Source: a virus. Taken from it: DNA of 51,428 nucleotides. A program made the position numbers and the translations under genes. The notes beneath the pieces were generated by a model. It was not told the DNA's origin, made no database searches, and saw nothing but the letters and a program-made list of their open reading frames with translations. Each line of letters begins with the position of its first letter. Position 1 is the first letter of the stretch. This document shows, piece by piece, positions 18,263-40,443 of the stretch. Location of the stretch: positions 1 to 51,428 of the IMG/VR virus record IMGVR_UViG_3300042473_000468; one strand, given 5' to 3'.

Positions 18263-18904
18263 TTAGAAATGAGGAACAACCCAAGGATCAACGATAACTG
18301 GAGTGCCATCATCTCTTTTCATAAAGTTTTGATCATGAAGATCCAAAACCCAATCCTTGGTATTTCCAATTTTATTTAACTTTTTAATAGTTTTATATAA
18401 TTTATCTACACCCGCGGGCCCAACTAATTTATCTAAATCTTCAAAGGCCATTTGAATATTTGAACCATATTCTACTGGTATTAATTTTATAAATGTTTCA
18501 AAATCACCGTTTTCTTCAACATCATCAGCCATACCCGCTAATAAATCACCAGTTCCCTGATCAAGTTGAAATAAGAATTCTTGACGTATTTGTAAATAAC
18601 GATGACCTTTAAATATGAAACTGTCATACCCATAAAATTTTGGTAAAAATGGATTGTCTTTATTTTTATCGCAAAACTTAGCCCATTTGAAAAACATCAG
18701 ATGATCTTCACTAAAACTATCACTATCTTTTTGTGTTCCAAATACTTTTAAAACCATATTAGTTCCTGGTTCTAAGTAGGCACTTTGATCAACACCCGCT
18801 TTCAAGAATTTATATCCTTTCTTTTCAAGAGCACGTCTAATACCAACGTCTGTTTGACTGTATTCTTCCAGTTCTTGTTCGGGTATAAATTCTTGATATT
18901 TCAT
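18263..18904 (-). CDS. kinase-like protein with capsid-targeting-type leader (copy A)
   Basis: A 213-residue protein. The first nine residues are MKYQEFIPE, like the T4 internal-protein leader with an IxE prohead-protease site. The body has a small kinase fold: Lys53 in VLKVFG (strand 3 Lys), DLHDQN with Asp188 and Asn193 (equivalent to the DLKPEN catalytic loop), and VDPW with Asp206 in place of DFG. All key residues are present, so it may phosphorylate a protein or small molecule, though the lobe is short. It is a paralogue of the gene at 19274-19921. It ends tail-to-tail with the repeat protein. I infer packaging in the virion and injection into the host. What it phosphorylates is unknown. 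Confidence 0.6.
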   Translation of the reverse strand: MKYQEFIPEQELEEYSQTDVGIRRALEKKGYKFLKAGVDQSAYLEPGTNMVLKVFGTQKDSDSFSEDHLMFFKWAKFCDKNKDNPFLPKFYGYDSFIFKGHRYLQIRQEFLFQLDQGTGDLLAGMADDVEENGDFETFIKLIPVEYGSNIQMAFEDLDKLVGPAGVDKLYKTIKKLNKIGNTKDWVLDLHDQNFMKRDDGTPVIVDPWVVPHF

Positions 18905-18905
18905 A

Positions 18906-19199
18906 TTAACCGTTTAAGATTGATGTTACTTTAGCGATTAAATCGGCGTTTGCCCATGTATCACGAATAGCATCATATTCATCATTTTCCCAAACAGTTA
19001 CGCCGCGAGTGGATGACCCACGAGTTTCAGTTTCTCCATTTGGACGTTCTTCGGTAATAAATGGTCCCAATTCAACTCTAACATGAACTTTACGATTTTC
19101 AATTTCTTCTTGAATTTCACGAATTCTAAACTCATTTGTTACTTGTCTTTCTGATAAAACTACTTCATTAGTTAATGATTGTGTACCTAAGATAGCCAT
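18906..19199 (-). CDS. hypothetical protein, 97 aa, between two kinase-like genes
   Basis: A small protein starting MAILGTQSLTNEVVLSERQ, with a Glu-rich helix (REIQEEIENRK) and then HVRVELGPFITEE. AAAAGGAAATAAAATG gives a good ribosome binding site. No family recognised. It lacks the leader found on both flanking proteins. It shares the late-type promoter at 19225 with the downstream kinase-like gene, which starts one base after its stop. Confidence 0.6.
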   Translation of the reverse strand: MAILGTQSLTNEVVLSERQVTNEFRIREIQEEIENRKVHVRVELGPFITEERPNGETETRGSSTRGVTVWENDEYDAIRDTWANADLIAKVTSILNG

Positions 19200-19224
19200 T
19201 TTATTTCCTTTTAAAAATGATACA

Positions 19225-19235
19225 AGTATTTATTC
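19225..19235 (-). promoter_or_regulatory. late-type promoter GAATAAATACT (minus strand)
   Basis: On the minus strand GAATAAATACT lies 25 bases before the 97-residue gene's ATG, leaving room for its AAAAGG ribosome binding site. The core matches T4 late promoters (TATAAATA). Confidence 0.5.
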
Positions 19236-19273
19236 AATTTTTTGTTAAAAAAGAAGTTTCATTTATTTTCATA

Positions 19274-19921
19274 TTATAGAGCCCATGGATCAAGAATAAC
19301 TGGTGTGCCATCTCGACGCATCATGATGTTGTCACCGTGAAGATCATAGGCCCAGTTTTTTTGATTCGCAATATTGGCAATATCTATCATTGTCTGATAG
19401 AACAATCTCAAGTCTTTGTCATCTATTTTCTCTTTTATTTGTTTCCATGATGCTCTGGTGTCAGCATAATTATTATTAGTGTACTTTTCGTCCATTGTCT
19501 CAAACGGAACTTTGCGTCTGGCCATCATGGCCATGGATTCTATTGTTCTTTTTTGATCTTTTTCCAAGTCATATAATCGTTCTTGACGAATCTGTAGATA
19601 GACTGAACTGCCCCAATGAAAACTTTCAATGCCTGAAAACTTTGGTAGAAATTTATTATCAGAATGCATATCGCAATACTTAGACCAATAATATGCCATC
19701 TTTTGATGTTCATTAAAATTGGTCTGTGGTTTGCCATTCTTTTTCACAACATCTGCCCCGTCTCCAGTTCCAAATATTTTGAGAATTTGTCCAGTTCCTG
19801 GTTCTAAGAATGCAATCGCATCATCTCCACGACCTTTCTGTTTATAACCTTTTTTCTTGAGAGCATCAATAATACCTGGATCTATGTGACTTTCTTCATT
19901 GATAATTTGATTGATTTTCAT
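19274..19921 (-). CDS. kinase-like protein with capsid-targeting-type leader (copy B)
   Basis: The ATG at 19921 is used (215 residues); an in-frame ATG lies six codons upstream, inside the promoter motif. Leader MKINQIINE ends in an IxE site at residue 9. The body matches copy A: DPGIIDALKKKGY, FLEPGTGQILKIFG (Lys48), DLHGDN (Asp193, Asn198) and ILDPW (Asp211), then stops almost at once. IRQERLYDLE after SSVYLQ corresponds to IRQEFLFQLD in copy A. The short body after the DPW motif means there is no full kinase C-lobe, as in aminoglycoside-kinase-like families. I infer a virion-packaged enzyme. Target unknown. Confidence 0.6.
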   Translation of the reverse strand: MKINQIINEESHIDPGIIDALKKKGYKQKGRGDDAIAFLEPGTGQILKIFGTGDGADVVKKNGKPQTNFNEHQKMAYYWSKYCDMHSDNKFLPKFSGIESFHWGSSVYLQIRQERLYDLEKDQKRTIESMAMMARRKVPFETMDEKYTNNNYADTRASWKQIKEKIDDKDLRLFYQTMIDIANIANQKNWAYDLHGDNIMMRRDGTPVILDPWAL

Positions 19922-19926
19922 GATAT

Positions 19927-19937
19927 AGTATTTATCC
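19927..19937 (-). promoter_or_regulatory. late-type promoter GGATAAATACT (minus strand)
   Basis: On the minus strand GGATAAATACT ends five bases before the kinase-like ATG at 19921, so the mRNA would be nearly leaderless. It lies next to a divergent sigma70-like promoter. Confidence 0.5.
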
Positions 19938-19945
19938 AAAATCTC

Positions 19946-19974
19946 TTGACTGTTATGTATAATTATGAGATAAT
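19946..19974 (+). promoter_or_regulatory. sigma70-like promoter TTGACT-17-GATAAT
   Basis: TTGACT, a 17-base spacer and GATAAT, six bases before the ATG at 19981. Likely an early promoter for the ATPase operon. Confidence 0.5.
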
Positions 19975-19980
19975 CATTAA

Positions 19981-20166
19981 ATGAGCGAAGAAAACATTTT
20001 TGATTTTACTGGTTTACCACCACCAAAAAAGAAAAAAGAAGTGGTTGATGATGTTAGAAATATCTTAATTCTAGAATTGCCAGGAACTAAAGATGGTGAA
20101 ATGAAACTTAAGAAGATATATGAAGAACTTACTGAAAGAGGATTCAAGTGCAAACTTATGAATTAA
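19981..20166 (+). CDS. hypothetical protein, 61 aa
   Basis: A small protein (MSEENIFDFTGLPPPKKKKE..., then a helix ELPGTKDGEMKLKKIYEELTERG). It overlaps the following ATPase gene by 19 bases, so the two are probably coupled. No family recognised. Confidence 0.5.
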   Translation: MSEENIFDFTGLPPPKKKKEVVDDVRNILILELPGTKDGEMKLKKIYEELTERGFKCKLMN

Positions 20167-21257
20167 CACTTAAATGTGATGCTCCAGAAGACTTTTACGT
20201 TATTAAAGCAGCCAATAGTGTTGACCTAGATGTAGAAAAGAAACTGACACATCATATCAAAATACGTGCTGATATTGAAAGTCAATATAATATTGGTCTG
20301 ATTATTGGTAATAGTGGATCAGGTAAAACCACATTAGCCAAACATATTTGGGGTGATAATTGTTTTGATACATTATTGAAACCGGATCAGGCTGTTATCA
20401 GTCAATTTGATGATAGTTATAGTTATGATGAACGCGTATCATTCTTAAGTGGAGTTGGTTTAGGATCACCAGTTACATGGATTGCACCAGCCAAAACTCT
20501 AAGTAATGGTCAACAAGCCAGGGCTGAATGTGCCTTACAAATGGCAAGATTAGATGGACAGTTTATTGTTATTGATGAATGGACTTCGGTAGTGGATCGT
20601 TCAGTGGCTAAAGCTATGTCACATAGTATTCAAAAACATGCTAGAAAAACAGGTAAACAAATAGTTTTATTGAGTTGTCATTATGATATCGTAGACTGGC
20701 TTAACCCAGATTGGATCATTGACTGTAATACTCAAGACTATATTGATCGGAGGTTACTTTGTCCAAGGCATACCAGATCCGAAGAGCTTGTTTTTGGGAT
20801 TAGACAGCTTACAGACTCAAAAAGTTGGAAAGTCTTTAGCAAATATCACTATCTAAGTGATAGTTTACCACCAGGAAAAACCTATATGTTTGGGTTGTTT
20901 CATGAAGATATTCAAATAGGATTTATTGCCTATAGTAATTATGTTATGTGGAAACAAGAACATAAAGATGCTGGTATACCAATGGTAATGCATGCCAATA
21001 GAATTGTAGTTCATCCTGATTATTGTGGATTTGGATTAGGTGGTAGAATGACTGATATTACCGCTGATTATATGAAACATGAATTAGGATTTGATGTTCA
21101 AATTAAGTTAAGTAGTGCTAGTATGGCTAATTTATTAAAGAGAAATGAACGATGGGAATTACGAGATGTCAGTAGAAACGTACACAACATATGGTCAGGA
21201 AAAGGTAGAAACGGAAGAATGGACGTTAAAACATACAGTTTTAAGTTTTTAGACTGA
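20148..21257 (+). CDS. ABC-type ATPase fused to a GNAT-like domain
   Basis: A 369-residue protein with a GTG start at 20148 preceded by GAGG. The N-terminal part is an ABC ATPase: Walker A GNSGSGKTT near residue 54, signature LSNGQ near 121, Walker B FIVIDEW, and switch His in LLSCHYD. No membrane segment, so it is not a transporter. From about residue 200 a second domain has YHYLSDSLPPG, FIAYSNYVMWKQ and HANRIVVHPDYCGFGLGGRM, a GNAT acyl-CoA-binding pattern. This architecture matches the orthologous group described as an ABC-type ATPase fused to a predicted acetyltransferase (COG2401). Function is not known; a link to nucleic-acid or protein modification is possible. Driven from the promoter at 19946. 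Confidence 0.7.
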   Translation: MQTYELTLKCDAPEDFYVIKAANSVDLDVEKKLTHHIKIRADIESQYNIGLIIGNSGSGKTTLAKHIWGDNCFDTLLKPDQAVISQFDDSYSYDERVSFLSGVGLGSPVTWIAPAKTLSNGQQARAECALQMARLDGQFIVIDEWTSVVDRSVAKAMSHSIQKHARKTGKQIVLLSCHYDIVDWLNPDWIIDCNTQDYIDRRLLCPRHTRSEELVFGIRQLTDSKSWKVFSKYHYLSDSLPPGKTYMFGLFHEDIQIGFIAYSNYVMWKQEHKDAGIPMVMHANRIVVHPDYCGFGLGGRMTDITADYMKHELGFDVQIKLSSASMANLLKRNERWELRDVSRNVHNIWSGKGRNGRMDVKTYSFKFLD

Positions 21258-21299
21258 AACAGATTGAAACAATTAAAGATATATCTAATCCGAATTTAG

Positions 21300-21328
21300 T
21301 TGACTATAAACATAAATAGTAGTATTAT
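21300..21328 (+). promoter_or_regulatory. sigma70-like promoter TTGACT-17-TATTAT
   Basis: TTGACT, 17-base spacer, TATTAT, followed by AAAGGAG and the ATG at 21356. Confidence 0.5.
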
Positions 21329-21355
21329 AGTTAAAAGTCGATCAAAGGAGATCGT

Positions 21356-21736
21356 ATGTTTATCAAATCAAAATTAGTATTATTGACCGTAAGTTTATTG
21401 TTATCATCCTCAGTATTAGCGGATGGACGTGGACGTAAACACCCACAGGATCATGGATATAATCGTGGTCATAATCATAATCATAATTATAATCATGGAT
21501 ATAATCGTGGTCATAATCATAATTACAATCGTGGGTATAATAATAATTGGATAGCTCCCGCACTTATTGGTGGAGCAATCGTGGGTTCCATGATTTATGG
21601 TGTCACGAGACCTGACCCAGTATATGTAGCGCCGGATCCTGTATACGTTAATCCTCAGATTCCTTACGGATACCATTACGAAACAATATTTGATGGTAAC
21701 TGTAATTGTTATAGACGAGTTTTAATTCAAGATTAA
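21356..21736 (+). CDS. exported His/Asn-rich repeat protein
   Basis: A 126-residue protein with a very good AAAGGAG site. A signal peptide (MFIKSKLVLLTVSLLLSSSVLA, cut after about residue 22) precedes GYNRGHNHNHN-type repeats at about 33-62, a glycine-rich hydrophobic segment (IAPALIGGAIVGSMIYGV) and a DPVYVAPDPVYV stretch, ending with CNCY. His/Asn repeats may bind metal. The hydrophobic segment may be a membrane span or glycine-zipper. It resembles small host periplasmic proteins, and the PVY motif recurs in the lipoprotein at 22789. Possible envelope-modifying or superinfection-exclusion role; inference only. Confidence 0.65.
   Translation: MFIKSKLVLLTVSLLLSSSVLADGRGRKHPQDHGYNRGHNHNHNYNHGYNRGHNHNYNRGYNNNWIAPALIGGAIVGSMIYGVTRPDPVYVAPDPVYVNPQIPYGYHYETIFDGNCNCYRRVLIQD
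21450..21523 (+). repeat. 32-bp direct repeat, two copies, inside the His/Asn-rich gene
   Basis: Bases 21450-21481 and 21492-21523 are identical (start ATCATGGATATAATCG), 42 bases apart. The period is a multiple of three, so copies keep the GYNRGHNHN frame. A likely site of copy-number change. Confidence 0.7.
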
Positions 21737-21781
21737 TAATGACTACTACAATTTTCAGACAGTATTTGGATACAGAACTAA

Positions 21782-21907
21782 ATGGATAAATTATTTCTCA
21801 TATTGATTATGATTCCGATAATTGGATACACATGTTATAAAATTATAACTTATGATTGGTCTAATCATAATGAAGATATTAAAAGTATGGGCGATGACAT
21901 ATTTTAA
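21782..21907 (+). CDS. 41-residue membrane protein
   Basis: ATG at 21782, stop at 21905-21907. MDKLFLILIMIPIIGYTCYKII is a single membrane span, followed by a polar tail (WSNHNEDIKSMGDDIF). No clear ribosome binding site. It lies just upstream of the tmRNA acceptor piece. Function unknown. Confidence 0.45.
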   Translation: MDKLFLILIMIPIIGYTCYKIITYDWSNHNEDIKSMGDDIF

Positions 21908-21921
21908 AGAATTGTTGTAAA

Positions 21922-22296
21922 CCCTGAGTAATCAGGACAGAAGTAAAGAGAAAAGTGTTCAAGACGCGGTTATCGTATACCGCCAGCTCCACCATAAAGG
22001 GATTACATGAATTACATTGACAATACTATAGTGCTTGAAAACGGCAGAACAGTACATTACACAAAAGATGTATCTAAAATGTCGCTTAAAGAAGCTAATA
22101 AAATGTTAGCCACTATTAGAAAGTCTCTTTATGATGGGGCTGAAAGGATTCGATTGGGCAACAAGTAACGGAATGGACAACTCGTCAGCGATAGACGTAA
22201 AAACTAAACAACCAATAAATGCTAACGATGAAAATTGGGCATTAGCCGCTTGAAAAAGTTGCTTAGGGTAGGAAATACCTCGTAACAGAAAATACC
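21922..22296 (+). ncRNA. ssrA: circularly permuted (two-piece) tmRNA, tag ANDENWALAA
   Basis: The acceptor piece comes first: a CCTGA/TCAGG hairpin at 21923-21936, then GACGCGG...CCGCCAGCTCCACCA ending at 21994. This closely matches the 3' end of bacterial tmRNA, with an encoded CCA; the T-loop seems eight bases rather than seven. After a 141-base intervening segment, the coding piece starts at 22136 with GGGGCTG, which pairs with CAGCTCC of the acceptor over 7 bp, including a G-U at the third pair (the alanine identity signal). GGATTCGATTGGG follows as the D-like loop. The tag frame GCT...GCT TGA at 22221-22253 encodes ANDENWALAA. A GTTGC/GTAAC hairpin lies 3' of the tag. tmRNA with SmpB rescues stalled ribosomes and tags proteins for degradation. 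Piece ends are approximate. Confidence 0.9.
22007..22168 (+). CDS. 53-residue ORF inside the tmRNA intervening segment
   Basis: The ATG at 22007 has AAAGGG five bases upstream. The frame (MNYIDNTIVLENGRTVHYTK..., then SLKEANKMLATIRKSL) ends at a TAA at 22166-22168. Its last 33 bases are the first bases of the mature tmRNA coding piece. The composition looks like a real small protein (amphipathic helix in the second half). Translation would conflict with tmRNA folding and processing, so use of the transcript as mRNA or as tmRNA precursor may be mutually exclusive. It could also be a chance frame. Function unknown. Confidence 0.5.
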   Translation: MNYIDNTIVLENGRTVHYTKDVSKMSLKEANKMLATIRKSLYDGAERIRLGNK

Positions 22297-22325
22297 AATA
22301 GGGACTTTCGGGTCCCTATTTTATT
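22297..22325 (+). terminator. rho-independent terminator after the tmRNA
   Basis: AATAGGGAC and GTCCCTATT pair over 9 bp around a TTTCGG loop, followed by TTATT. It closes the tmRNA transcript. Confidence 0.85.
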
Positions 22326-22329
22326 AACA

Positions 22330-22338
22330 CTAAATATC
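22330..22338 (+). promoter_or_regulatory. late-promoter-like motif CTAAATATC
   Basis: CTAAATATC lies directly after the tmRNA terminator and ends five bases before the ATG at 22344. Confidence 0.4.
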
Positions 22339-22343
22339 TAATC

Positions 22344-22598
22344 ATGGAAATAAAAACTTCTGCTGATTGGTGGGCAATTGAACAAGAATTAAAAACTCAA
22401 TTGAAGTCAATGAATTATAATAGTGATCTTTACAAGATGAAAGATAATATTACAGTTATGGTGGTTGAATTAAACAAAGCTGAAGTTACTGCCAGAAGAA
22501 TCAATAACTTTAAGTATTTGGAACCACAAATTTGTGAGATTAATCAAGCGATTAATAATCTAGAAAAATGGATCTTGATGTTGATCTTAAGCCAGTAA
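22344..22598 (+). CDS. hypothetical protein, 84 aa
   Basis: A small helical protein (MEIKTSADWWAIEQELKTQLKSM..., LNKAEVTARRINNF). It follows the tmRNA terminator and a late-type motif. No ribosome binding site is visible, which fits a leaderless start. No family recognised. Confidence 0.5.
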   Translation: MEIKTSADWWAIEQELKTQLKSMNYNSDLYKMKDNITVMVVELNKAEVTARRINNFKYLEPQICEINQAINNLEKWILMLILSQ

Positions 22599-22606
22599 TA
22601 AATACA
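22597..22606 (+). promoter_or_regulatory. late-type motif AATAAATACA
   Basis: AATAAATACA overlaps the end of the preceding gene and lies 16 bases before the ATG at 22623, with GGAG between. Confidence 0.4.
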
Positions 22607-22622
22607 TATGGAGAAAGACATC

Positions 22623-22775
22623 ATGGAAATGAAAACTTATTGGGCATTTGTAAAAGCTGGAACTGGGAACTTTATCAAAGTTACAATTCAGGCTGATACC
22701 CCATACAATGCCTTACAAATACTAAAAAACACCTACGGTGACAATTTACAAAGTGGGCCGGCTTTAGTCAATTAA
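22623..22775 (+). CDS. 50-residue hypothetical protein
   Basis: ATG at 22623 with GGAGAAAG nine to twelve bases upstream; TAA at 22773-22775. It reads MEMKTYWAFVKAGTGNFIKV, then a helix (NALQILKNTYGDN). Compact alpha/beta peptide; function unknown. Confidence 0.5.
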   Translation: MEMKTYWAFVKAGTGNFIKVTIQADTPYNALQILKNTYGDNLQSGPALVN

Positions 22776-22788
22776 TTGGATACTAATC

Positions 22789-23001
22789 ATGAAAAAAGTT
22801 GTATTGGCAGTTATATTTGGAATCATTACTCTATTATCAGGTTGCGTGGCATATGATCCATATTATCAGTCACGACCAGTATATTATCAACCACAACCAG
22901 TATATGTACCACGTCCAGTATATATACAACCACGTTGTACGTGGGTTACTCAATGGGACAGATATAATAGAACGTATAGAAACGTTAAAATTTGTCGTTA
23001 A
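22789..23001 (+). CDS. small lipoprotein with PVY repeats
   Basis: A 70-residue protein. MKKVVLAVIFGIITLLSGC is a lipoprotein signal with lipobox LSGC, so Cys19 should be lipidated. The mature part has four RPVYY/QPVYV-type repeats and ends CTWVTQWDRYNRTYRNVKIC. The PVY repeats echo those of the exported protein at 21356. Phage lipoproteins of this size can block superinfection at the envelope; that role is inferred only. Confidence 0.65.
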   Translation: MKKVVLAVIFGIITLLSGCVAYDPYYQSRPVYYQPQPVYVPRPVYIQPRCTWVTQWDRYNRTYRNVKICR

Positions 23002-23030
23002 AAGTGTTGTAAAATTACAACAAAAATCTC

Positions 23031-23059
23031 TTGACATTTAATCAATATTAGTATATAAT
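23031..23059 (+). promoter_or_regulatory. consensus sigma70 promoter TTGACA-17-TATAAT
   Basis: Perfect -35 and -10 hexamers with 17-base spacing, upstream of the 23-residue ORF. Confidence 0.8.
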
Positions 23060-23089
23060 TATCACATACACTGATAAAAGGAACTAAAA

Positions 23090-23161
23090 ATGTTAGAAAT
23101 CATCGTTTATCTCGCTATTTGTGCTGTAATTCAGATCGTTTTAATCAAACTTTTTTTCTAA
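23090..23161 (+). CDS. 23-residue membrane microprotein
   Basis: ATG at 23090 preceded by AAAAGGAACTAAAA, under a consensus promoter. The peptide MLEIIVYLAICAVIQIVLIK plus three residues is one hydrophobic span. Strong promoter and ribosome site make it more than a chance frame. It may act on a membrane protein or be a leader for regulation. Confidence 0.5.
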   Translation: MLEIIVYLAICAVIQIVLIKLFF

Positions 23162-23191
23162 AATACTGTTGTTTTAATACAACATTATAAT

Positions 23192-23220
23192 TTGACAATA
23201 AATCCATTATCTGATATAAT
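23192..23220 (+). promoter_or_regulatory. sigma70 promoter TTGACA-17-TATAAT with ATAAATC extension
   Basis: TTGACAATAAATC then TATAAT at 23215. The 13-base string TTGACAATAAATC recurs at 23646, 25328 and 26556. Confidence 0.8.
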
Positions 23221-23251
23221 ATACACATACACTGAGAAAACGGATACGAAA

Positions 23252-23623
23252 ATGAACGAATTCAAAAGCTGGGAAGAAATGTCAGAATTAGAACAACTCG
23301 CTTGCGAGTACTCTGATTTTTATAAGGACGCATACGGGTATCGCCCCCGTCTGGACACTTCCAGTTGGACTGTGGAAGAATTCGAAGTGGTATTTGAGGA
23401 ACTCGCCAAGGTTTGTAAGGCAAACGCACTTGCTCGTAAAGAAGAAGAATCTTACAAAGCTCGCAAGTTGGAGGCTCGTATTTCTGAATTACTCACCATG
23501 GGTGCCAAAGATCGTGCAATGGCTATTCGCTGGATCAGTGAGGCGGAAGATGCCGGCGGGGATATGGAATATCTCTGTTTTCTACTCGGCGTAGAATACG
23601 GTTATTTTAAAAATAACCAGTAG
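23252..23623 (+). CDS. hypothetical early protein, 123 aa
   Basis: The ATG at 23252 is the real start; the frame's earlier TTG lies inside the -35 box. The protein begins MNEFKSWEEMSELEQLACEY and is acidic and helical, with repeated Glu/Ala and Arg/Lys stretches (EEESYKARKLEARISELL), ending GVEYGYFKNNQ. No family recognised. Codon use here is richer in GC third bases than neighbours, which may mean recent arrival or strong expression. Confidence 0.65.
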   Translation: MNEFKSWEEMSELEQLACEYSDFYKDAYGYRPRLDTSSWTVEEFEVVFEELAKVCKANALARKEEESYKARKLEARISELLTMGAKDRAMAIRWISEAEDAGGDMEYLCFLLGVEYGYFKNNQ

Positions 23624-23645
23624 TTGTATTTTTACAACAAATTTG

Positions 23646-23674
23646 TTGACAATAAATCCCATTTCAGTTATAAT
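23646..23674 (+). promoter_or_regulatory. sigma70 promoter TTGACA-17-TATAAT with ATAAATC extension
   Basis: TTGACAATAAATC, 17-base spacer in all, TATAAT; upstream of the ATG at 23706. Confidence 0.8.
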
Positions 23675-23705
23675 TATTACACACACTCACAAAAAGGAAT
23701 TAAAA

Positions 23706-24032
23706 ATGAAAGAAGCCGTTAAGTTGTTACACTATGTGGATCCGGGTCATTCTTGGTTACGTGTCCCTCTGAAAATGCTCAAGAAATTGGGTATTGCCAA
23801 TAAGATTTCATCTTTCTCGTACCAACGTACTGAATATGTTTATCTTGAAGAAGATTCTGATATGACCGTGTTCATGAAAGCCATGGAAGCCAAGGGTCAA
23901 AAAGTTGTATTCGTTACTCGTCGCACTGATCGCGAATCACGTATTCGTAAGTATGGGCAGTATCAATCTGCTCAATCAGTAGTTGATAGCGTTACTCGCC
24001 GTTCGTTAGATGAATTGGTTTCGGAGGAATAA
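23706..24032 (+). CDS. small phage protein with HSWLRVP motif, 108 aa
   Basis: Start ATG 23706 with AAAAAGGAATT upstream. Motifs: YVDPGHSWLRVPLKMLKKLGIANKISSFSYQR and VYLEEDSDMTVFMKAME. I recall this pattern from many phage and plasmid small proteins without a known function. The C-terminus is basic then acidic (VTRRTDRESRIRKYG). Early expression from its own promoter. Confidence 0.65.
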   Translation: MKEAVKLLHYVDPGHSWLRVPLKMLKKLGIANKISSFSYQRTEYVYLEEDSDMTVFMKAMEAKGQKVVFVTRRTDRESRIRKYGQYQSAQSVVDSVTRRSLDELVSEE

Positions 24033-24034
24033 AA

Positions 24035-31514: not shown

Positions 31515-32315
31515 TTATCTACATTTATCTCTTTTAGATTGAGTTAACTTACCAAAATCAACCTTCCATTCCCCACCAGCGGGTAATTCATTTGCATTTG
31601 ATGGAAAAAAGTAAACAACTCCAGATAATTTCATAATTTCTGAAACTGGGACACGAAATTTAGTTAAATCATTACCCAAGTTAGGATAAGGCGCTGTATG
31701 CGGGAATAACCATCCTGCTACGGATCCTGTGTTATTGTCAATTACTATTTTATAGTAGGCGTGTGGAACAATTACATTATTGCCAATTTTTTTATTGGTT
31801 GCATTATAAATTCCCCCAACATAGATAACAAATGGTCTATTATATTGAACGACCCATCCTCGAATACTAGTTTCCAACAATTTCCAAATACCACGATTTA
31901 ATGATCCTGCTTGTGGTATCATATTAGTCATTAAGAAACTTTCATATTCTACTTGTTGATCCCAACTTTGATCTCCATTTGGCACAGCATGACCCTTATC
32001 ATACCCAGTACTCACATAATCGTTTGGTGTAGCACCATTAGCAACACTTTTATCAGCGACAAAAGCATCGCTTCTGACCACACAACCAAGAGCATTTTGT
32101 GGATGTAAAGTATATGTAACATATTTTGGTAATTTTGATGTGGCATCATATCCAACAAAGTATCCTTGACGACAAATGGATTGAACCCCAGAAGTTTGTG
32201 GGAATCCATATGGTGTATGTGCAATACAGTTTTGAACTGGTTCTGGGACACGTTGATTCCATGCAAATACGTTAGTTGACATCAACATTGTTAATATGAT
32301 TAAATATTTTTTCAT
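31515..32315 (-). CDS. secreted DNA/RNA non-specific endonuclease (NUC1 type)
   Basis: A 266-residue protein. MKKYLIILTMLMSTNVFA is a signal peptide. The catalytic region reads STGYDKGHAVPNGDQSWD (DRGH variant, DKGH) and MTNMIPQAGSLNRGIWKLLE, with Asn in NRGxW for metal binding. Cysteines 28, 43, 77 and near the C-terminus may form disulfides in the periplasm. The enzyme should cut DNA or RNA outside the cytoplasm. Possible roles are scavenging nucleotides from debris or destroying DNA of superinfecting phages in the periplasm. It is minus-strand and abuts the epimerase stop. Confidence 0.85.
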   Translation of the reverse strand: MKKYLIILTMLMSTNVFAWNQRVPEPVQNCIAHTPYGFPQTSGVQSICRQGYFVGYDATSKLPKYVTYTLHPQNALGCVVRSDAFVADKSVANGATPNDYVSTGYDKGHAVPNGDQSWDQQVEYESFLMTNMIPQAGSLNRGIWKLLETSIRGWVVQYNRPFVIYVGGIYNATNKKIGNNVIVPHAYYKIVIDNNTGSVAGWLFPHTAPYPNLGNDLTKFRVPVSEIMKLSGVVYFFPSNANELPAGGEWKVDFGKLTQSKRDKCR

Positions 32316-32372: not shown

Positions 32373-32807
32373 ATGAGATTAAATGAAATTGAACAATCAA
32401 AGAGTAAGATAGACGATCTTAAGAAATTTATTTCTTGGGCATGTGATCGTTTAGACATTGAAAATATGCCTACTGTCAAGTTTGGTACTGATTTATCTGA
32501 TGTAAAACAAAAAAGAACATTTGGAAGTACTAATAGTGATGGTCAAATATGGGTACATATTGTCAATAGAAACACGGCTGATACAATGCGAACATTATGT
32601 CATGAATTGATTCATCATAAACAATTTGAAATTGGTACGGCTTATGATGGAATGAATAAAGAACAAACACAATCAATTGAAGACGAGGCTAATGCTATCG
32701 CTGGACGAATGATGAGAGATTATGGTGCTGAACATGAAGAAATTTACGAATCTGTATCAATTTCTAAACATATACGTGATGCCATTAATGAAATAACAAT
32801 AAAATAA
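32373..32807 (+). CDS. small zinc metallopeptidase-like protein
   Basis: A 144-residue protein. HELIHHKQ at residues 77-84 is an HExxH zinc motif, followed by IEDEANAIAGRMMRDYG with the likely third ligand Glu. The start MRLNEIEQS is a looser version of the leader on nearby proteins (LNE could be a cut site). Such small peptidases are common in marine T4-like phages. It may be a virion or assembly protein; the target is unknown. Late-type promoter directly upstream, no ribosome site. Confidence 0.7.
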   Translation: MRLNEIEQSKSKIDDLKKFISWACDRLDIENMPTVKFGTDLSDVKQKRTFGSTNSDGQIWVHIVNRNTADTMRTLCHELIHHKQFEIGTAYDGMNKEQTQSIEDEANAIAGRMMRDYGAEHEEIYESVSISKHIRDAINEITIK

Positions 32808-34565: not shown

Positions 34566-34605
34566 TTTTTGTCTAGTAATTTAATCAAGTTTTTATTTTG
34601 AGATA

Positions 34606-34615: not shown

Positions 34616-34635
34616 GTATTACTTGGATTATTACA

Positions 34636-36954
34636 ATGTCAAACATGAAGAAATTACTGGATATTATGAATGAAACCACTGTTAGTGGTTCAATTGCTGC
34701 AGGCCCAGCAGTTGGTCTTGGTACTCAACGTAGAGTTCAAGAAGAAGATTCAGATGATGGTACAAAAGCGCCAGATGCTCCCAAAGCTAAAGAGTTTGGA
34801 CTGTGGAAAAACAGTGTATTGGCTGGCGCTGAACAACGTGACAAGAAGAAATCTAAGAAAGTGGCAGAATCCAAAAGTGAAGAACGTAATGAAATGGATA
34901 CTCCAGCCGTACAGAGCGGATTAAAGAAAATGGCTGCTCGTCATAATAATGAAAACTGGACTAAAGAACAATTGGCAGATTTAGGTAGACGATTGGCTTC
35001 AGTTAAAACTACACGTAAAAATGGATATACTGAATTCAACGGTATTGATAAGGCTATTATACGTAGTAAAAAGGTCAATGAACTTGATTGTGGTTCTGGT
35101 CAACGTCAATTAAAATTAGCAGAAGAAAACATTTCAGAAGAACAATTGTTAGCCAAAGAATTGGCTCGTAGACTTGATTTGTTTATGAAAGGTTTAGATC
35201 GTGACCTAGGTAAGAAATCATCAGATCGTGGAATTCAATCAAAAACTGAACCAAGTACTGGTGCTATGAGAGAAGATAATAAAAGTATTGGCCCAGATAA
35301 AAATGATCCTTTTGAAAAAGGTTGGCGTGCTAGATACGATGATGCTAATCCATATTCTAAAGGTACTAAAGAATATAATGAGTGGCAACACGGTAAAGAT
35401 GAACGTGAAGCACAACCAAATCATTATGATGAAAGTGTTGAAGAAAGTACAGAACAACAATTAAGTGTACAACAACTAGCTACTATCAATGAGGGACTAG
35501 AAGATCCTAAAGATAATCCCTGCTGGAAAGGCTACAAGCCTGTGGGTACAAAGAAGAAGGCAGGCAAGACTGTACCTAATTGTGTTCCAAAAGAAGGTAT
35601 GAAGGAACGTCTAAAAGAATTCGCCCCTAGTGATGGAGACGGTGGCGATGACGGCGAATTTGATGAAGACATATTGCGTAAGTTGGCCTCACAATGGTTT
35701 AACGGTGACGAAGATCCCCGAGTAGAACAGTTATTGGCAGCAGCCGGTTGGGAAATTGGACAGGACGAAGGTTATGACGATGAGCCTGGAGTATTTGTTG
35801 TTATGTCTGGAGACGACGATGGTCGATCTTACATCAGTTGGAGCGCAGATGATTTGCGATCCGAGATGTCTGAGGAATCAGTGATTGGAATTGGATCCAA
35901 ACTTCCAAAGAGCGATATTGAAACTTTTGGAATACAAAAAGGACGACCATACAAAATCAATCCTCCTCAAGATTGGAAACCAGGCGACAGAAAACGTGCT
36001 GTTCAACAACTTATTCCCACTCAAGACAAGAAAGATCACATTCGTAGTCGATTGGGTAAACATGTAGATCCTGTATTGCCCGAGCAAGATGCGGCCCACA
36101 GCTATAAAGACACCGGGGGTACTTTTGTGGATCGTGTAGTTGGAGAGATACTGAACTATCAGTCGCTGAACAATGCAAATCCCAAATTTGCTGATCTTAG
36201 TTCTGCAGTAAAATCAAAACTAACATCTCTTGGAAAAGACAAGGAAAGTCAAATGTATCAGCAAGCACTCAAGCAATCTGCTGAATTATCAGGAAAAGAA
36301 GATGTCACAGAAGGCGAGTATCAAGGTCAATACTCTTCGAAAAAGACAGCAATTGAATACGCTAAAGAAAAAGTAAAATCATTTCGTGATTGGCTCGACG
36401 GCATTGAAATATGGTCTTTACCCAGTGGTAGATTTGATGTAGTTCATACTAGCAATTCAAACGGTCGCGAACATGTTATAAAGAATGGTGGTAAAAAATT
36501 AGGTACAATTTATCCAGAAAAACCATCATTTATAAAAAAGAAAGATGTGACAGAAAACAATTGGTCTCACGACCCTTGGAAAGACAAATATTTTGGGCCA
36601 ACCGCTGGTGCAATGAAGAAAATATTTAAAATAAAAATTCAAGATGAAGATTCTAATGTTAAAGCTTTTAATGTTAAAGCAGAAACAGAACAACAAGCCA
36701 AAGATATAATTGAAAAACATGTACCAGGTTCAAATATTCTATCTGTTAAGTTTGTTAAAAATCTAATGGCAGTTGAACAGATTAAAGAAACCTCTAACTA
36801 TGGTGATCTAGATGAAGTTGCTCCACCTGGCAAAGAAGATTGGATTAAATCAAACAAAGACAGATTCAAAAAAGAATATGGCGATAAAAAAGGAACAAAT
36901 ATTTTATACGCAACTGCCTGGGCAGACTACAATAAAAAACATGGGAAGAAATAA
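34636..36954 (+). CDS. 772-residue mosaic protein, probable virion/core protein
   Basis: Starts MSNMKKLLDIMNE; from Met4 the leader MKKLLDIMNE is like a T4 capsid-targeting sequence (MxE site). The body strings together modules: EFGLWKNSVLAG; DNPCWKGYKPVGTKKKAGKTVPNCVPKE at about 293-321; an acidic DGDGGDDGEFDED part with FVVMSGDDDGRSYISW; YSSKKTAIEYAKEKV; and KEDWIKSNKDRFKKEYGDKKGTNILYATAWADYNKKHG at the end. The WKGYKPVGTKKK and YG-KKG-ILYATAW modules recur in T4-like marine phages, often in head or scaffold-related proteins as far as I recall. I infer a structural or internal head protein. Exact role unknown. Late-type promoter upstream. Confidence 0.55.
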   Translation: MSNMKKLLDIMNETTVSGSIAAGPAVGLGTQRRVQEEDSDDGTKAPDAPKAKEFGLWKNSVLAGAEQRDKKKSKKVAESKSEERNEMDTPAVQSGLKKMAARHNNENWTKEQLADLGRRLASVKTTRKNGYTEFNGIDKAIIRSKKVNELDCGSGQRQLKLAEENISEEQLLAKELARRLDLFMKGLDRDLGKKSSDRGIQSKTEPSTGAMREDNKSIGPDKNDPFEKGWRARYDDANPYSKGTKEYNEWQHGKDEREAQPNHYDESVEESTEQQLSVQQLATINEGLEDPKDNPCWKGYKPVGTKKKAGKTVPNCVPKEGMKERLKEFAPSDGDGGDDGEFDEDILRKLASQWFNGDEDPRVEQLLAAAGWEIGQDEGYDDEPGVFVVMSGDDDGRSYISWSADDLRSEMSEESVIGIGSKLPKSDIETFGIQKGRPYKINPPQDWKPGDRKRAVQQLIPTQDKKDHIRSRLGKHVDPVLPEQDAAHSYKDTGGTFVDRVVGEILNYQSLNNANPKFADLSSAVKSKLTSLGKDKESQMYQQALKQSAELSGKEDVTEGEYQGQYSSKKTAIEYAKEKVKSFRDWLDGIEIWSLPSGRFDVVHTSNSNGREHVIKNGGKKLGTIYPEKPSFIKKKDVTENNWSHDPWKDKYFGPTAGAMKKIFKIKIQDEDSNVKAFNVKAETEQQAKDIIEKHVPGSNILSVKFVKNLMAVEQIKETSNYGDLDEVAPPGKEDWIKSNKDRFKKEYGDKKGTNILYATAWADYNKKHGKK

Positions 36955-37394
36955 TGTTATCTGACGATTTAAAAGTATTACTTGGAAGTACATTTGTATT
37001 ATATACAAAAATACATACCTTTCATTTTAATGTTGAAGGGCCAAGTTTCCCACAATATCATAAATTCTTAAAATCTTTCTATGAAGATACATATGAAACT
37101 ATTGATACTATTGGAGAATATATCAGATCATTAGATTCTTATACTCCAGTTAATTTGGCTAGAATGTTAGAGTTAAGCATCATTGAAGAACAGACTAAAA
37201 TTCCTCGTGCCGAACTCATGTTTGCTGAACTGCTAACCAATACTGAGCAAATGATTGAGTTAGTTAAGCAGATATTTGATGTTGCCACTGAGATGAAAGA
37301 ACAGGGCATTTCCAATTTCATGGCCGATTTACAAGATTTGTATTCTAAAAAACGTTGGATGATTAGTAGTATATTGAAAAAAGAAAGAGCATAA
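36954..37394 (+). CDS. Dps-like ferritin-family protein
   Basis: A 146-residue four-helix protein starting at a TAATG junction. THTFHFNVEGPSFPQYHKFLKSFYEDTYETIDTIGEYIRSL carries the Dps ferroxidase pattern (H-x-x-H/N-x-x-G-x-x-F-x-x-H, then E...D...E). Dps proteins form dodecamers that bind iron and protect DNA from oxidative damage. Complete by length. It has no leader of its own, though it lies between two leader-type genes. Confidence 0.8.
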   Translation: MLSDDLKVLLGSTFVLYTKIHTFHFNVEGPSFPQYHKFLKSFYEDTYETIDTIGEYIRSLDSYTPVNLARMLELSIIEEQTKIPRAELMFAELLTNTEQMIELVKQIFDVATEMKEQGISNFMADLQDLYSKKRWMISSILKKERA

Positions 37395-37395
37395 T

Positions 37396-38568
37396 ATGAG
37401 ATTTTATGAATTTTTAAAAGAAGCGAAACGAACGGGTGGCATTCAAATCATGTCATTAGATCAATTTGCTAATCAAGAAGAACAAAGTGAACTTGATGAG
37501 GCAGATTTATTAGGCGCTCCTACAACTGACTTTTCAGATCCAGAAATGCAAAAGTATCTACGAACAACTGTAGATAAAACAAAAACTGCTAGTCAACGTT
37601 ACAAAATGCCCTACGTACATCGTAGTTCGGCATTGAAATTTTATGATGAATCAGGAAAACAATTTGATCTAGACAAAATGAAAGGCATCATCAGTGAGCG
37701 TCCAAAACGTTTACTCAAACAGAATGAAAAGATGGAACACAGCAATGGTGAAAAAGAACAATTCTTCAACATTGGTTTTGCTGCTCTAACTGGATTGGCA
37801 TTAGATGAAAAGACAAATCAATTTAAGATTGTCAATACTTGCCCAGGTGCTGGTAGTTGTAAAGTAGATTGTTTCGCTCGTGGTGGTGGTAAGGTTCAGT
37901 TTGAAGGTCCATGGATCAGTGATGCTAGAATCTTAACATATTTGTTGAATGATCCAGAAGGATTCAAAAAACAATTGATCAGCGAGATTGACAAAGAAAA
38001 TAAAAAATATGCTAAACAGGGCGCCAAAGTTACTATTCGTTGGCATGATGCTGGTGATTTCTTTAGTCCAGAATATGTAGATTTGGCTGCTGATGTTGCC
38101 AAAACATTCCCAGATACTCAATTCTATGCCTATACTAAAATCGCTAAGGTTGCTCAAGGTGGATTACCAAGTAACTTTCATATTAACTGGAGTGAAGGCG
38201 CTCATACAAGTCAAGAGAAACAAATCAAATTTGCAGATCCTAAACTTCAAACGACCAAACATAGTAGAATTGTTCCATCTAAGTTGACTGATGGCACACC
38301 AATCTTCAATGATCTATTGAAGAAAGATGACGAAGGTAAGTTAGAGAAGACTGATGCTGGTGGTTGGATTGTCACTGATATGAACAAGTTGAAAGATCGT
38401 ATTGCAAATTTATACAAGATTGATAAAGATACTATTTTGGATTATGATGAGATGATGGCTAAACCAGAAGGTAAAGATAAAAAGTGGAATGTAATCATTG
38501 TTCCTGGACAGGGCGACATCAGTGCCAAGCGTAGTGATGTATTGGGAACATTGTTATTGAAACATTAA
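37396..38568 (+). CDS. Gp88-like cysteine protein with capsid-targeting-type leader
   Basis: A 390-residue protein. Leader MRFYEFLKE with an LKE site at residue 9. The core has NTCPGAGSCKVDCFARGGG at about 149-167, IRWHDAGDFFS and FYAYTK, which matches the phage 'gene product 88' family (possible metal or Fe-S protein of unknown function). An additional loop of about 70 residues precedes the core (KYLRTTVDKTKTASQRYKMPYVH). Ends VIIVPGQGDISAKRSDVLGTLLLKH. I infer packaging in the virion. Gene starts two bases after the Dps-like gene. Confidence 0.6.
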   Translation: MRFYEFLKEAKRTGGIQIMSLDQFANQEEQSELDEADLLGAPTTDFSDPEMQKYLRTTVDKTKTASQRYKMPYVHRSSALKFYDESGKQFDLDKMKGIISERPKRLLKQNEKMEHSNGEKEQFFNIGFAALTGLALDEKTNQFKIVNTCPGAGSCKVDCFARGGGKVQFEGPWISDARILTYLLNDPEGFKKQLISEIDKENKKYAKQGAKVTIRWHDAGDFFSPEYVDLAADVAKTFPDTQFYAYTKIAKVAQGGLPSNFHINWSEGAHTSQEKQIKFADPKLQTTKHSRIVPSKLTDGTPIFNDLLKKDDEGKLEKTDAGGWIVTDMNKLKDRIANLYKIDKDTILDYDEMMAKPEGKDKKWNVIIVPGQGDISAKRSDVLGTLLLKH

Positions 38569-38571
38569 AGA

Positions 38572-38625
38572 ACACCTACCATAGGACCGGTGTGGGCGGG
38601 TGCTGCCCTAGTTAGTGATTCGCTA
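38572..38625 (+). other. GC-rich intergenic segment with three potential hairpins
   Basis: Between two genes: ACACC/GGTGT, then GGGC/GCCC, then TAGTG/CGCTA with a 3-base loop. It is markedly richer in GC than its surroundings. Not followed by a T-run, so not a typical terminator. Could be a structured RNA or processing element. Function not known. Confidence 0.4.
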
Positions 38626-38659
38626 CCACAATACTATAAAGTGACCATTGGAAACTATT

Positions 38660-38836
38660 ATGAAAATCAACGAACTATTATCCGAAATGAAATCAGAATC
38701 TAACGAAGAAAAAGTTATTGATAATGAGTCAAAATATCTTACTGGTAAAGATAAAGTAGCCAAGATTAGTCCAGTATTGGGCGCCAAACCAAAAAAACAA
38801 AAAGCATTGATGAATAAGTTTTTCGGATCGGATTAA
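38660..38836 (+). CDS. 58-residue peptide with capsid-targeting-type leader
   Basis: The ATG at 38660 is used; the TTG at 38648 is not needed. Leader MKINELLSE ends in LSE at residue 9. The remainder is short and charged (SESNEEKVIDNESKYLTGKDKVAK, then PKKQKALMNKFFGSD), with a basic C-terminus. Its size and charge resemble T4 internal head proteins/peptides. Likely a virion internal peptide; its effect on the host is unknown. Confidence 0.55.
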   Translation: MKINELLSEMKSESNEEKVIDNESKYLTGKDKVAKISPVLGAKPKKQKALMNKFFGSD

Positions 38837-38838
38837 AT

Positions 38839-39315
38839 ATGGATGATCTTTTAAAAAAATTCAAAATTCAAAAGTTTGAAATGAATTTAAATCAAGATTT
38901 GGCTGATAATATTTTAGAGTTGAAAAAAACTTTAAAAGGTGTTACATTGAGTAATAAAGGTGGTTGGCAGGGTGTAATAGATAATAATACAAATGTTTCA
39001 TGGGTAGCACAAACAATAACTCAGATTGAAAAATCCACTAATCTTAAAACTTCAAGATTTTGGTTTAACGTAAATGGTCCAAAACATTATAATGATTGGC
39101 ATATTCATCATAGAAATAGATTGGTTTGTGTGGCATATGTGAAAGTTCCAGAAAATTCTGGAGATATTGAATTTAAATCTAACAACAACACAATCTTTTC
39201 AATAACTCCATATAACGGTCTTGTTTTGATATTTCCAGGAACATTAAATCATCGTGTATTGCCAAATGAATCAATGGACTACAGAATAAGTCTATCAACA
39301 AATTTATTATCATGA
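38839..39315 (+). CDS. putative 2-oxoglutarate/Fe(II) oxygenase, 158 aa
   Basis: WHIHHRNRLVCVAYVKVPENSGDIEF, then PYNGLVLIFPGTLNHRVLPNESMDYRISLSTN. This is the layout of the small putative 2OG-Fe(II) oxygenase family (ligands His in WHxH, His in LNHRV, Arg in YRISL). It starts two bases after the previous gene. It has no leader, unlike the genes on both sides. Substrate unknown. Confidence 0.65.
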   Translation: MDDLLKKFKIQKFEMNLNQDLADNILELKKTLKGVTLSNKGGWQGVIDNNTNVSWVAQTITQIEKSTNLKTSRFWFNVNGPKHYNDWHIHHRNRLVCVAYVKVPENSGDIEFKSNNNTIFSITPYNGLVLIFPGTLNHRVLPNESMDYRISLSTNLLS

Positions 39316-39326
39316 AAATTTAAATT

Positions 39327-39349
39327 AAGAGATAAATTAAAATGAGAGC
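39327..39349 (+). repeat. 23-bp repeat over the start of the ParB-like gene (copy 1)
   Basis: Identical to 39715-39737. Covers the upstream AAGAGATAAATTAAA and the first codons (ATGAGAGC). Confidence 0.7.
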
Positions 39350-39728
39350 ATATGAATTTCTAATTGAAAATGATATATCACTAAGTCAATTGTATTCTGA
39401 CAACTATCCAGATCATGATGAAATTTTTTGGAATTATGTTTCAAATTCAGATTTAAATATCAAATTTGAAGTGGAAAAACTCTCACCAATGAAACTAGAT
39501 ATTTTATTGTTGAGCCAATATCGTGTTGAACATATTGATGAAATTGTTGATATGTTAAAAGATGAACAAATTGAAATCATTAATGACTATAGATCATCAC
39601 CAAACTTATCTGATTCAATTATAGTAGTAGCAAACAATAGAATCATAGATGGTAATCATAGAGCATTAGCGGCAGCATTAAATAATGTATCAATTAAATA
39701 TATAGATTTGGATCAAGAGATAAATTAA
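39342..39728 (+). CDS. ParB-like (DGNHR) protein with capsid-targeting-type leader
   Basis: A 128-residue protein. Leader MRAYEFLIE with LIE at residue 9. The body ends with IIVVANNRIIDGNHRALAAALNN, the DGNHR motif of ParB/sulfiredoxin-like domains, which bind nucleotides and can act as nuclease, CTPase or kinase. It is short and single-domain. I infer that it is injected with the DNA. Substrate unknown. Its start region is duplicated in the next gene. Confidence 0.6.
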   Translation: MRAYEFLIENDISLSQLYSDNYPDHDEIFWNYVSNSDLNIKFEVEKLSPMKLDILLLSQYRVEHIDEIVDMLKDEQIEIINDYRSSPNLSDSIIVVANNRIIDGNHRALAAALNNVSIKYIDLDQEIN

Positions 39729-39737
39729 AATGAGAGC
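39715..39737 (+). repeat. 23-bp repeat over the start of the ADP-ribosyltransferase-like gene (copy 2)
   Basis: Second copy of 39327-39349. Includes the stop of the previous gene and ATGAGAGC of the next. Confidence 0.7.
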
Positions 39738-40443
39738 CAGTGAATTTCTTATAGAATCCGCTCAGAGTCTCAATAGACTAGACGATCCGCAATATTATAA
39801 ATCGTGTGTTGACAGTTGGACCAAATATTACGGTCACGAAGATCGCGCTCGTTCAGAACTTGATGATTATAAAAATGTTGTTGATGGTTTGATTCATCGT
39901 GGTGGTAAAGTATATCGAATAATATTTGCTGATAGTCCAGAAGAAATTAGAATGAACGATCTTGGCAGTCACTGGACAACTGAATCACATAACATTGACG
40001 ATTATCTAGATAGTCTTTGGTCTAATTATGGCAAAGGTAAAAAGAACTCATATGTTGTAGTAGCCACAGTTGGTCCAAATAATATCAGCAATGATGTGGT
40101 TGATATCTCTGGAAATCCAGAAGAAAAAGAAGTCAACATCAATGATACTAGTCGAGCAACTTATCAAGCATTTGAATACAAGGGCAAGCAAATAGGTCAA
40201 AGAGTTCGCGAGAATATGGATCATAGTAAAGATGATCAAGCCGTATCGCAATTGAAGGCGGCATTATTGGCTCAGAAAAATAAAATCAAATCAGTTAAAA
40301 ACGATAAAGATGATGTATATGATATCATTGATGATATGATGACTAGTATATCCAAATCACATGGTATCAGTGGACAAAAACTACATGACATGTGGACATC
40401 CAAATATAAAGAAATTCCAGATACTTGGATCATGCATCAGTAA
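39730..40443 (+). CDS. probable ADP-ribosyltransferase with capsid-targeting-type leader
   Basis: A 237-residue protein. Leader MRASEFLIE with LIE at residue 9. The body has GGKVYRIIFA (candidate NAD-binding Arg), GSHWTTES (candidate S/T-x-S strand) and GNPEEKEVNI, which carries an E-x-E pair, the catalytic motif of Arg-type ADP-ribosyltransferases. This R-S-E order is as in T4 Alt and ModA. T4 Alt is packaged in the head and injected. The two shared features make an Alt-like role likely. The C-terminal 70 residues are helical. Assignment is by motif only. Confidence 0.5.
   Translation: MRASEFLIESAQSLNRLDDPQYYKSCVDSWTKYYGHEDRARSELDDYKNVVDGLIHRGGKVYRIIFADSPEEIRMNDLGSHWTTESHNIDDYLDSLWSNYGKGKKNSYVVVATVGPNNISNDVVDISGNPEEKEVNINDTSRATYQAFEYKGKQIGQRVRENMDHSKDDQAVSQLKAALLAQKNKIKSVKNDKDDVYDIIDDMMTSISKSHGISGQKLHDMWTSKYKEIPDTWIMHQ

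Follow-up and report, generated by a model that had tools for sequence, protein, structure and literature searches.

Why do six proteins from five families, all encoded in one stretch of phage DNA, begin with the same kind of nine-residue sequence? The stretch is a virus record of 51,428 bases (IMG/VR record IMGVR_UViG_3300042473_000468, here called the window), and the six gene products start M[RK]xx[EQ][FIL][LI]xE, with [LI]xE at residues 7-9 in 6 of 6. Based on sequence, we consider it very likely that this sequence is a capsid-targeting propeptide like that of the T4 internal proteins, which would load effectors into the prohead. The six genes, named below by their first coordinate, are as follows.

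18263..18904, minus strand: leader protein 1, a kinase-like protein of 213 aa; leader MKYQEFIPE (18878-18904), mature protein predicted to begin QELEEYSQ
19274..19921, minus strand: leader protein 2, a kinase-like paralogue of 215 aa; leader MKINQIINE (19895-19921); PHROG 15752
37396..38568, plus strand: leader protein 3, Gp88-like, 390 aa; leader MRFYEFLKE at 37396-37422; PF17338, E 1.7e-29
38660..38836, plus strand: leader protein 4, a peptide of 58 aa; leader MKINELLSE (38660-38686); mature form predicted at 49 aa, pI 9.5
39342..39728, plus strand: leader protein 5, a protein of 128 aa that is ParB-like by eye only; leader MRAYEFLIE (39342-39368)
39730..40443, plus strand: leader protein 6, a protein of 237 aa whose N-terminal part is ADP-ribosyltransferase-like by eye only; leader MRASEFLIE (39730-39756)

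The leader motif in the window

All six N-termini listed by the first-pass annotation were confirmed. In a six-frame translation of the 51,428 bases the motif occurs six times, every time at a gene start and nowhere else; it is present in 6 of the 68 listed window proteins. Shuffling residues within proteins 20,000 times gave a mean of 0.0024 motif proteins (maximum 1), and 20,000 column shuffles gave a mean of 0.039 (maximum 2). A chance origin of the shared start is ruled out by the shuffles and the six-frame count. The motif was defined after the sequences had been seen, so the window odds flatter it; the tests in other phages are free of that bias. Two of the genes (19274 and 38660) start at an ATG a few codons inside open reading frames listed from TTG (19939 and 38648). 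Three further leader proteins (51348, 52344 and 94801) are encoded outside the window on the sibling contig G001.

The phage and its head-assembly genes

Three contigs are siblings of the window phage, with over 99.99% identity across the overlap: G001 (window 21087-51428), G010 (1-20203) and G009 (1-27883). G010, which is 99.995% identical to window 1-20203 across 20,203 bp, encodes a gp21-type prohead protease (PF03420, E 4.0e-29, S77 family) and the capsid protein gp23 (family PF07068). The block has the order portal, gp68-like, gp67-like, gp21, gp22, gp23, with all but gp21 and gp23 named by eye. The gp21 homologue that the first-pass annotation proposed to look for was found there, and the prohead protease belongs to the same phage population as the window leaders. 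PF03420 is also present in G005 and G008. The DNA polymerase of the window has large phages such as Sinorhizobium phage Phosso and Agrobacterium phage Atu_ph07 as its closest cultured relatives, and is less than 50% identical to theirs, which places the phage in a T4-related yet distant group.

T4 gp21 is described as cutting after L/I-x-E (PMC9026906). L-x-E stands immediately before the conserved body of gp23 in 9 of the 9 sequences printed, with the border set by eye. The leader might instead target another part of the virion or another structure (tail, baseplate or replication site), with its site cut by another protease or left uncut. GH19, LysM and phage lysozyme bodies, which occur among leader proteins of related phages, are also found in tails. 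However, the hydrophobic-x-Glu end matches both the T4 gp21 sites reported in PMC9026906 and the gp23 site of these phages, the T4 leader is a head signal and gp21 is encoded by the same phage; we regard another destination as quite improbable.

The leader in related phages

The first-pass annotation expected related phages to have the same leader on unrelated bodies, and they do: 194 leader proteins, pooled from two sources and counted among the matches listed, fall into 67 N-terminal families. The first source comprises 1,806 distinct genes called in the window and eight other records, in the polymerase loci and in two Gp88 loci. Duplicates were dropped by their first 40 residues (2,334 genes reduced to 1,806), and genes outside the window were called with a simple caller written for this analysis. 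In this set 71 starts fit the leader up to residue 8, and residue 9 is Glu in 56 of them, Asn in 6 and Asp in 1. At 288 internal sites of leader shape, residue 9 is Glu in 28 and Asp in 46. The 56 Glu9 starts form a set chosen without any DNA pattern. Codons differ at the fixed leader residues (at position 9, GAA 46 and GAG 10), so the constraint acts on the protein. Sister families with Glu at residue 8, 9 or 10 retain hydrophobic-x-Glu.

The second source is an IMG/VR scan with one DNA form of the leader, which required ATG-AGR-GC and GAR-TTY. The Glu form gave at least 150 matches at no fewer than 120 loci; among the matches listed, to which all Glu-form counts here refer, 127 are at or near called gene starts and 1 is internal in frame. 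The Asp form, for which the scan is complete, gave 54 matches, of which 28 lie at or close to starts and 11 are internal and in frame. Bodies shorter than 40 aa, internal matches and duplicates were dropped, which took the Glu form from 150 to 146 to 143 and the Asp form from 54 to 39 to 24. The 143 Glu-form bodies include at most 22 matches that the caller did not put at a gene start, and some members of the Asp-form set, such as L310, are related to Glu-form families. By N-terminal domain, the 143 distinct Glu-form bodies form 54 clusters and the 24 Asp-form bodies form 15. The leader columns of the 194-protein set are biased because most of its members came from the DNA pattern that fixes ATG-AGR-GC and GAR-TTY.

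Bodies that were scanned match GNAT, GH19, LysM with lysozyme, DUF6267, DUF6321, LRV repeats and, below its cut-off, DUF5872; kinase-like and Gp88-like proteins are also among the leader-protein families. A leader protein of one relative (L124:8075-8461) matches ART-PolyVal PF18760 with E 4.7e-14, a family that none of the window's six matches. The proteins might be delivered as head-filling or DNA-compacting proteins that have no effector function. The 58-aa window peptide is small and basic, some modules of longer chains are short and by eye rich in Lys and Cys, and T4 IPIII is reported to affect head assembly as well (PMC9026906); against this, many bodies are enzyme-like (GNAT, ART-PolyVal, kinase-like, GH19), and we judge a purely structural role unlikely.

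The largest leader cluster, 64 of the 143 bodies (for example L205 5639-6064), consists of small proteins with a YRFGVAIA-like stretch, often two per locus; the one member scanned had no Pfam or NCBIfam match. The leader protein L293 5813-6973 has a KWDG stretch and a DUF6267 match. In cyanophage S-SM1, the protein beside the T4-GC190 counterpart (L359 339-1313) has a KWDG stretch and by eye resembles the L293 protein, and its listed open reading frame is without a leader.

Sites at module joints in longer proteins

Many leader bodies recur within longer proteins of relatives, such as L080 702-2519, which combines a GNAT match with a module of the 39342 type, and L242 1164-2540, in which GH19 follows other modules. 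Such multi-module proteins of disparate activity were seen in the relatives and not among the window's six. We aligned the first 100 body residues of the 194 leader proteins to 3,764 proteins and kept a joint if the alignment started no later than body residue 4 and no fewer than 40 residues into the target (95 joints reduced to 75). [FILVM]xE ends exactly at the border in 46 of the 75 distinct joints, while the mean at 40 other offsets is 1.8 and the maximum 9. L/I-x-E is at the border in 31 joints (0.85 at other offsets), and the Asp version of the site in 2. A looser alignment setting put the site at the border in 49 of 95 joints. By family, 15 of the 21 body families with internal copies show a joint site.

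A control with 2,717 genes that have no hydrophobic-x-Glu near their start gave 9 of 808 at the border and a mean of 12.95 elsewhere; when counted from residue 1, the non-leader control gave 18 of 634 at the border, against 9.8 elsewhere (maximum 39). Linkers that are merely acidic were ruled out as an explanation by the offset profile together with these controls.

Joints show Leu, Val, Ile or Met in the third position ahead of the cut, with Glu at the cut itself; the leader's Phe is not kept. In T4 IPIII, the residues reported to matter are 4 and 7 for targeting, and 8 and 10 for processing, which Asp at position 10 inhibits (PMC9026906). By analogy, we infer that the joints keep the residues used for processing in T4 and not the targeting Phe, in parallel with the split in IPIII. 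Since hydrophobic-x-Glu is found at many joints, the same protease would release chained bodies separately. Judged from these sequences, a two-part code is probable, though we hold it less firmly than the capsid-targeting reading: the leader would both address and cut, the joints would only cut, and chains of effectors would be split in the head by the capsid-maturation protease. As part of this code, modules are probably shuffled between phages at leader and joint sites.

The chains may be left uncut, with joints that are linkers, only the N-terminal leader removed and multi-module proteins that act whole, as polyvalent proteins do. The site is missing in 29 of the 75 joints, and polyvalent proteins are described as multi-domain injected proteins (PMC5512222). 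The exact position at the joint, the preference for Glu over Asp and the non-leader controls speak the other way, as a merely acidic linker would not peak at one offset; we find uncut chains rather unlikely. The 29 joints without a site also count against the capsid-targeting reading with its split chains, as do the 6 of 21 body families with internal copies that show no joint site and the fact that starts and joints are not independent in descent, the counts being uncorrected for shared descent.

Exchange of modules between near-identical phages

One relative, L012, matches the window at 99.5% and 99.8% on either side of gene 39342. Its counterpart of 39342 encodes 292 aa, consisting of the leader, an extra domain, KQLDE and then the same body; in the window, MRAYEFLIE leads directly into the body that L012 has after KQLDE. 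Between the matching stretches there are 495 bases in L012 and 3 in the window. The boundaries of this difference fall within codon 7 of the leader on one side and, on the other, a single base ahead of the joint Glu codon of L012. The genes beside it differ once more in L006 and L007, where a distinct leader protein of 281 aa and a fusion of 373 aa are encoded. From the changes seen in L012, L006 and L007, we regard the stretch from Gp88 to DNA polymerase as a site of leader-module exchange among close relatives.

This exchange, together with a stretch of upstream DNA that the adjoining genes 39342 and 39730 have in common, would also fit a shared start that is only a recombination seam, a common 5' gene end for cassette exchange that plays no part in delivery. 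A seam does not explain why codons differ while residues 5, 6, 7 and 9 hold, why joints retain the cut positions and not the rest of the leader, or why sister families with Glu at 8, 9 or 10 retain hydrophobic-x-Glu. We consider it highly improbable.

Comparison with T4, cyanophages and other phages

The capsid-targeting reading is known in kind from the T4 internal proteins, and the multi-module side from polyvalent proteins. T4 Ip1-3 are reported to have only the leader in common, to be injected and to inhibit different GmrSD variants, and at least 10 internal proteins are reported from related phages (PMC12373910). Leaderless T4 IPIII made in the host cell is reported still to restore infection (PMC9391042). 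As in T4 IPI-III and Alt, the window proteins have a short N-terminal leader that ends in L/I-x-Glu, unrelated bodies, a gp21 protease and accessory loci. The window-phage leader differs in having nine residues and often MRAxEF, whereas T4 has MKTYQEFIAE. The bodies of this group are often enzyme-like, whereas T4 internal proteins (Alt apart) are small and basic. Unlike T4, the group consists of distant, uncultured, large phages and has chains with sites at the joints.

When ten named phages were scanned with two loose DNA patterns, 11 and 7 matches resulted; the reversed patterns gave 2 each. The T4 matches are ipII, ipIII, gp61.1 and a start that reads MNEPQLLIE, taken to be gp21 from what PMC9026906 reports. 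In P-SSM2, the ten-residue form matches three annotated gene starts, one of which is T4-GC190, a cytidylyltransferase (MKSFSQFLTE), and the S-SM1 counterpart begins MKKFSAFLNE. T4-GC190 is reported as detected in purified S-SM1 virions (PMC3037559), and this is direct evidence that an enzyme-like protein with such a leader sits in the particle outside T4. T4-GC190 resembles the proteins described here in carrying a leader on an enzyme-like body; it differs in its ten-residue leader and in being a core gene of the cyanophages compared in PMC3037559, versus a variable cassette here. Both loose-pattern matches in Phosso are annotated gene starts, as is one of two in Atu_ph07; gp548 of Atu_ph07, a phage with 131 reported virion proteins, starts MRLSEILEE. 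One 9-residue match each in P-SSM2 and Atu_ph07 runs into a stop, and the HTVC008M match falls inside an annotated gene. In T4 itself, gp61.1 (54 aa; L167 467-631) begins MKTFKEFIKE, which fits the T4 leader.

Like the polyvalent proteins described in PMC5512222, the chains join modules of disparate activity in one polypeptide and are predicted to be injected, and a leader protein of a relative matches ART-PolyVal. The processing of polyvalent proteins is ascribed there to their own metallopeptidase domains, while the joints here fit the prohead protease. The modules here, unlike those of polyvalent proteins, also exist as single leader proteins. Passages of PMC5512222 name T4 Alt and describe neither a capsid leader nor prohead-protease cutting of polyvalent proteins. 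There is also a likeness to the giant phages phiKZ, 201phi2-1 and SPN3US, in which a gp21-related protease is reported to cleave head proteins behind the Glu of a short motif, and which are reported to have ejected proteins. The reported SPN3US propeptides (mostly over 100 residues, one of 20) and phiKZ site (S/A-x-E) are both unlike the window leader.

A proposed route and the evidence against it

In the route that we propose, the leader would dock its protein on the prohead core during head assembly. The gp21-type protease would cut after Glu9, so that the leader would leave and the body would stay in the head. At infection, the body would enter the cell with the DNA and may act on host defence or host machinery ahead of phage gene expression. 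In the relatives, one leader could carry a whole chain in, and the same protease would release the bodies at the hydrophobic-x-Glu joints.

PF03420 was sought in 24 Glu-form contigs of at least 64 kb, drawn from the 80 of 120 loci listed with lengths, and in 8 of 54 Asp-form contigs, those over 61 kb. It was present in 7 of the 7 Glu-form contigs of at least 147 kb.

Several results weigh against the capsid-targeting reading. None of the 17 Glu-form contigs of 64-129 kb, which could be fragments, gave a PF03420 match, nor did any of the 8 Asp-form contigs, of which only 2 exceed 147 kb. Several of the loose-pattern matches in the ten named phages look like chance. RaK2 has one, a gene start of unknown role, and GAP32 has one, on the opposite strand to an annotated gene; both were uninformative. 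Syn9 has no match to the loose patterns. The six predicted mature window proteins range from pI 4.3 to 9.5 and from 5.5 to 42.9 kDa and are not all small and basic as T4 internal proteins are; the 58-aa peptide alone fits well. The window copy of the metallopeptidase (MRLNEIE) is without the site, unlike most of its family. The word GATAAATA, considered as a promoter of leader genes, is the commonest upstream 8-mer in all gene sets, leader or not, and the T4 late-promoter word TATAAATA, tried as a marker of leader genes, was rejected as it is not enriched in the window phage.

GATAAATA lies about 15 nt upstream of gene 19274. It stands before 23 of 223 leader genes, compared with 162 of the 2,964 other genes, a modest enrichment (p 0.007, uncorrected; one of nine words tried), and the promoter evidence for leader genes is weak. 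The same word is upstream of 8 of the 34 genes on the structural contig G010 and is a possible variant of the T4 late promoter.

As far as we searched, what is new is the breadth of bodies, the phage group and the joint sites, which suggest chains split by the prohead protease. We found no description of joint cutting of effector chains in the literature searched, whose coverage leaves out the majority of subscription journals and every bioRxiv preprint. A leader recognisable in sequence gives a direct list of probably injected proteins, a class otherwise found mainly by virion proteomics. If the two-part code is true, leader and joint site together allow injected effectors to be read straight from metagenomes, and exact new N-termini are predicted. 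The prohead protease would, if joint cutting is real, double as a polyprotein processor for effectors. According to a 2026 review (PMC13282480), Tad1 is so far the sole anti-defence protein described in jumbo phages.

The leader proteins of the window

The claim that the six bodies are unrelated or belong to several families stands for five families; 18263 and 19274 are homologous and kinase-like, and their alignment conserves DLHxxN and DP motifs. Protein 19274 matches PHROG 15752 (protein kinase) with E 2.1e-5. An AlphaFold2 model of 18263 built from 11 sequences has a pLDDT of 87 and a pTM of 0.82, with residues 1-14 below 50. Like the preference for Glu over Asp at residue 9, this low confidence bears only indirectly on the predicted cut after the leader Glu. 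The Foldseek PDB rows shown for this model are kinases or kinase-like, with TM-scores of only 0.24-0.44 to the query, and among the viral rows are phage proteins named as protein kinases, with TM reaching 0.64. A PDB sequence search with the kinase profile gave 3 matches, E 0.27 to 0.83. The kinase-like reading of both proteins is well supported by the motifs, PHROG 15752, the AlphaFold2 model and the Foldseek rows.

In the Gp88-like family, hydrophobic-x-Glu ends at residue 7-10 in 13 of the 18 distinct N-termini listed. The ParB label given to 39342 and the ADP-ribosyltransferase label given to 39730 were not upheld, as no library match above cut-off names a function for either. A single-sequence model of 39730 has a pLDDT of 55 and is too poor to use, and the scan for relatives of its N-terminal part gave near-identical phages only. 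Its C-terminal module is also found in L006, where a fused protein is the sole connection between 39342 and 39730. This C-terminus (window 40174-40443) is a short module with a DYDTIDxLM...HDLFVKKY-like sequence, which also occurs in the N-terminal parts of peptidase chains of L037, L061 and L079.

The first-pass annotation also named looser versions of the leader on two neighbouring proteins.

34645..36954, plus strand: candidate chain protein that starts MKKLLDIMNE, followed by TTVSGSIAAG; 769 aa counted from its second ATG, 772 from 34636
32373..32807, plus strand: metallopeptidase-like protein, 144 aa; PF06114, E 3.3e-4, under its cut-off

The first of these fits from its second ATG; the second, with MRLNEIE, has no hydrophobic-x-Glu. 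The chain protein contains 20 [FILVM]xE sites in total, only some of which would probably be cuts. It shares segments with multi-module proteins of L145, L006, L129 and others; it had no Pfam match, and its PHROG matches (best E 7.7e-8) are of unknown function. In the metallopeptidase family, 26 of 36 distinct N-termini listed have a hydrophobic-x-Glu that ends at residue 7-10, with Tyr counted as hydrophobic; the figure for all proteins is 585 of 3,406. A PADLOC scan of 10 proteins gave no useful match and an NCBIfam scan of ten proteins little of use.

Other genes in the window

In window 2849-12424 a row of neighbouring genes has cysteine motifs of the radical-SAM type; both of those tested match PF04055, and the others were recognised by eye. 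At 20148-21257 a single chain without a leader has weak ABC ATPase and GNAT matches. A DNA/RNA non-specific endonuclease (31515-32315; PF01223, E 1.8e-38) is encoded on the opposite strand to its neighbours and has an apparent signal peptide by eye. At 49782-51064 a ferredoxin-dependent bilin reductase (PF05996) adjoins a heme oxygenase (PF01126), which together make up a bilin pathway.

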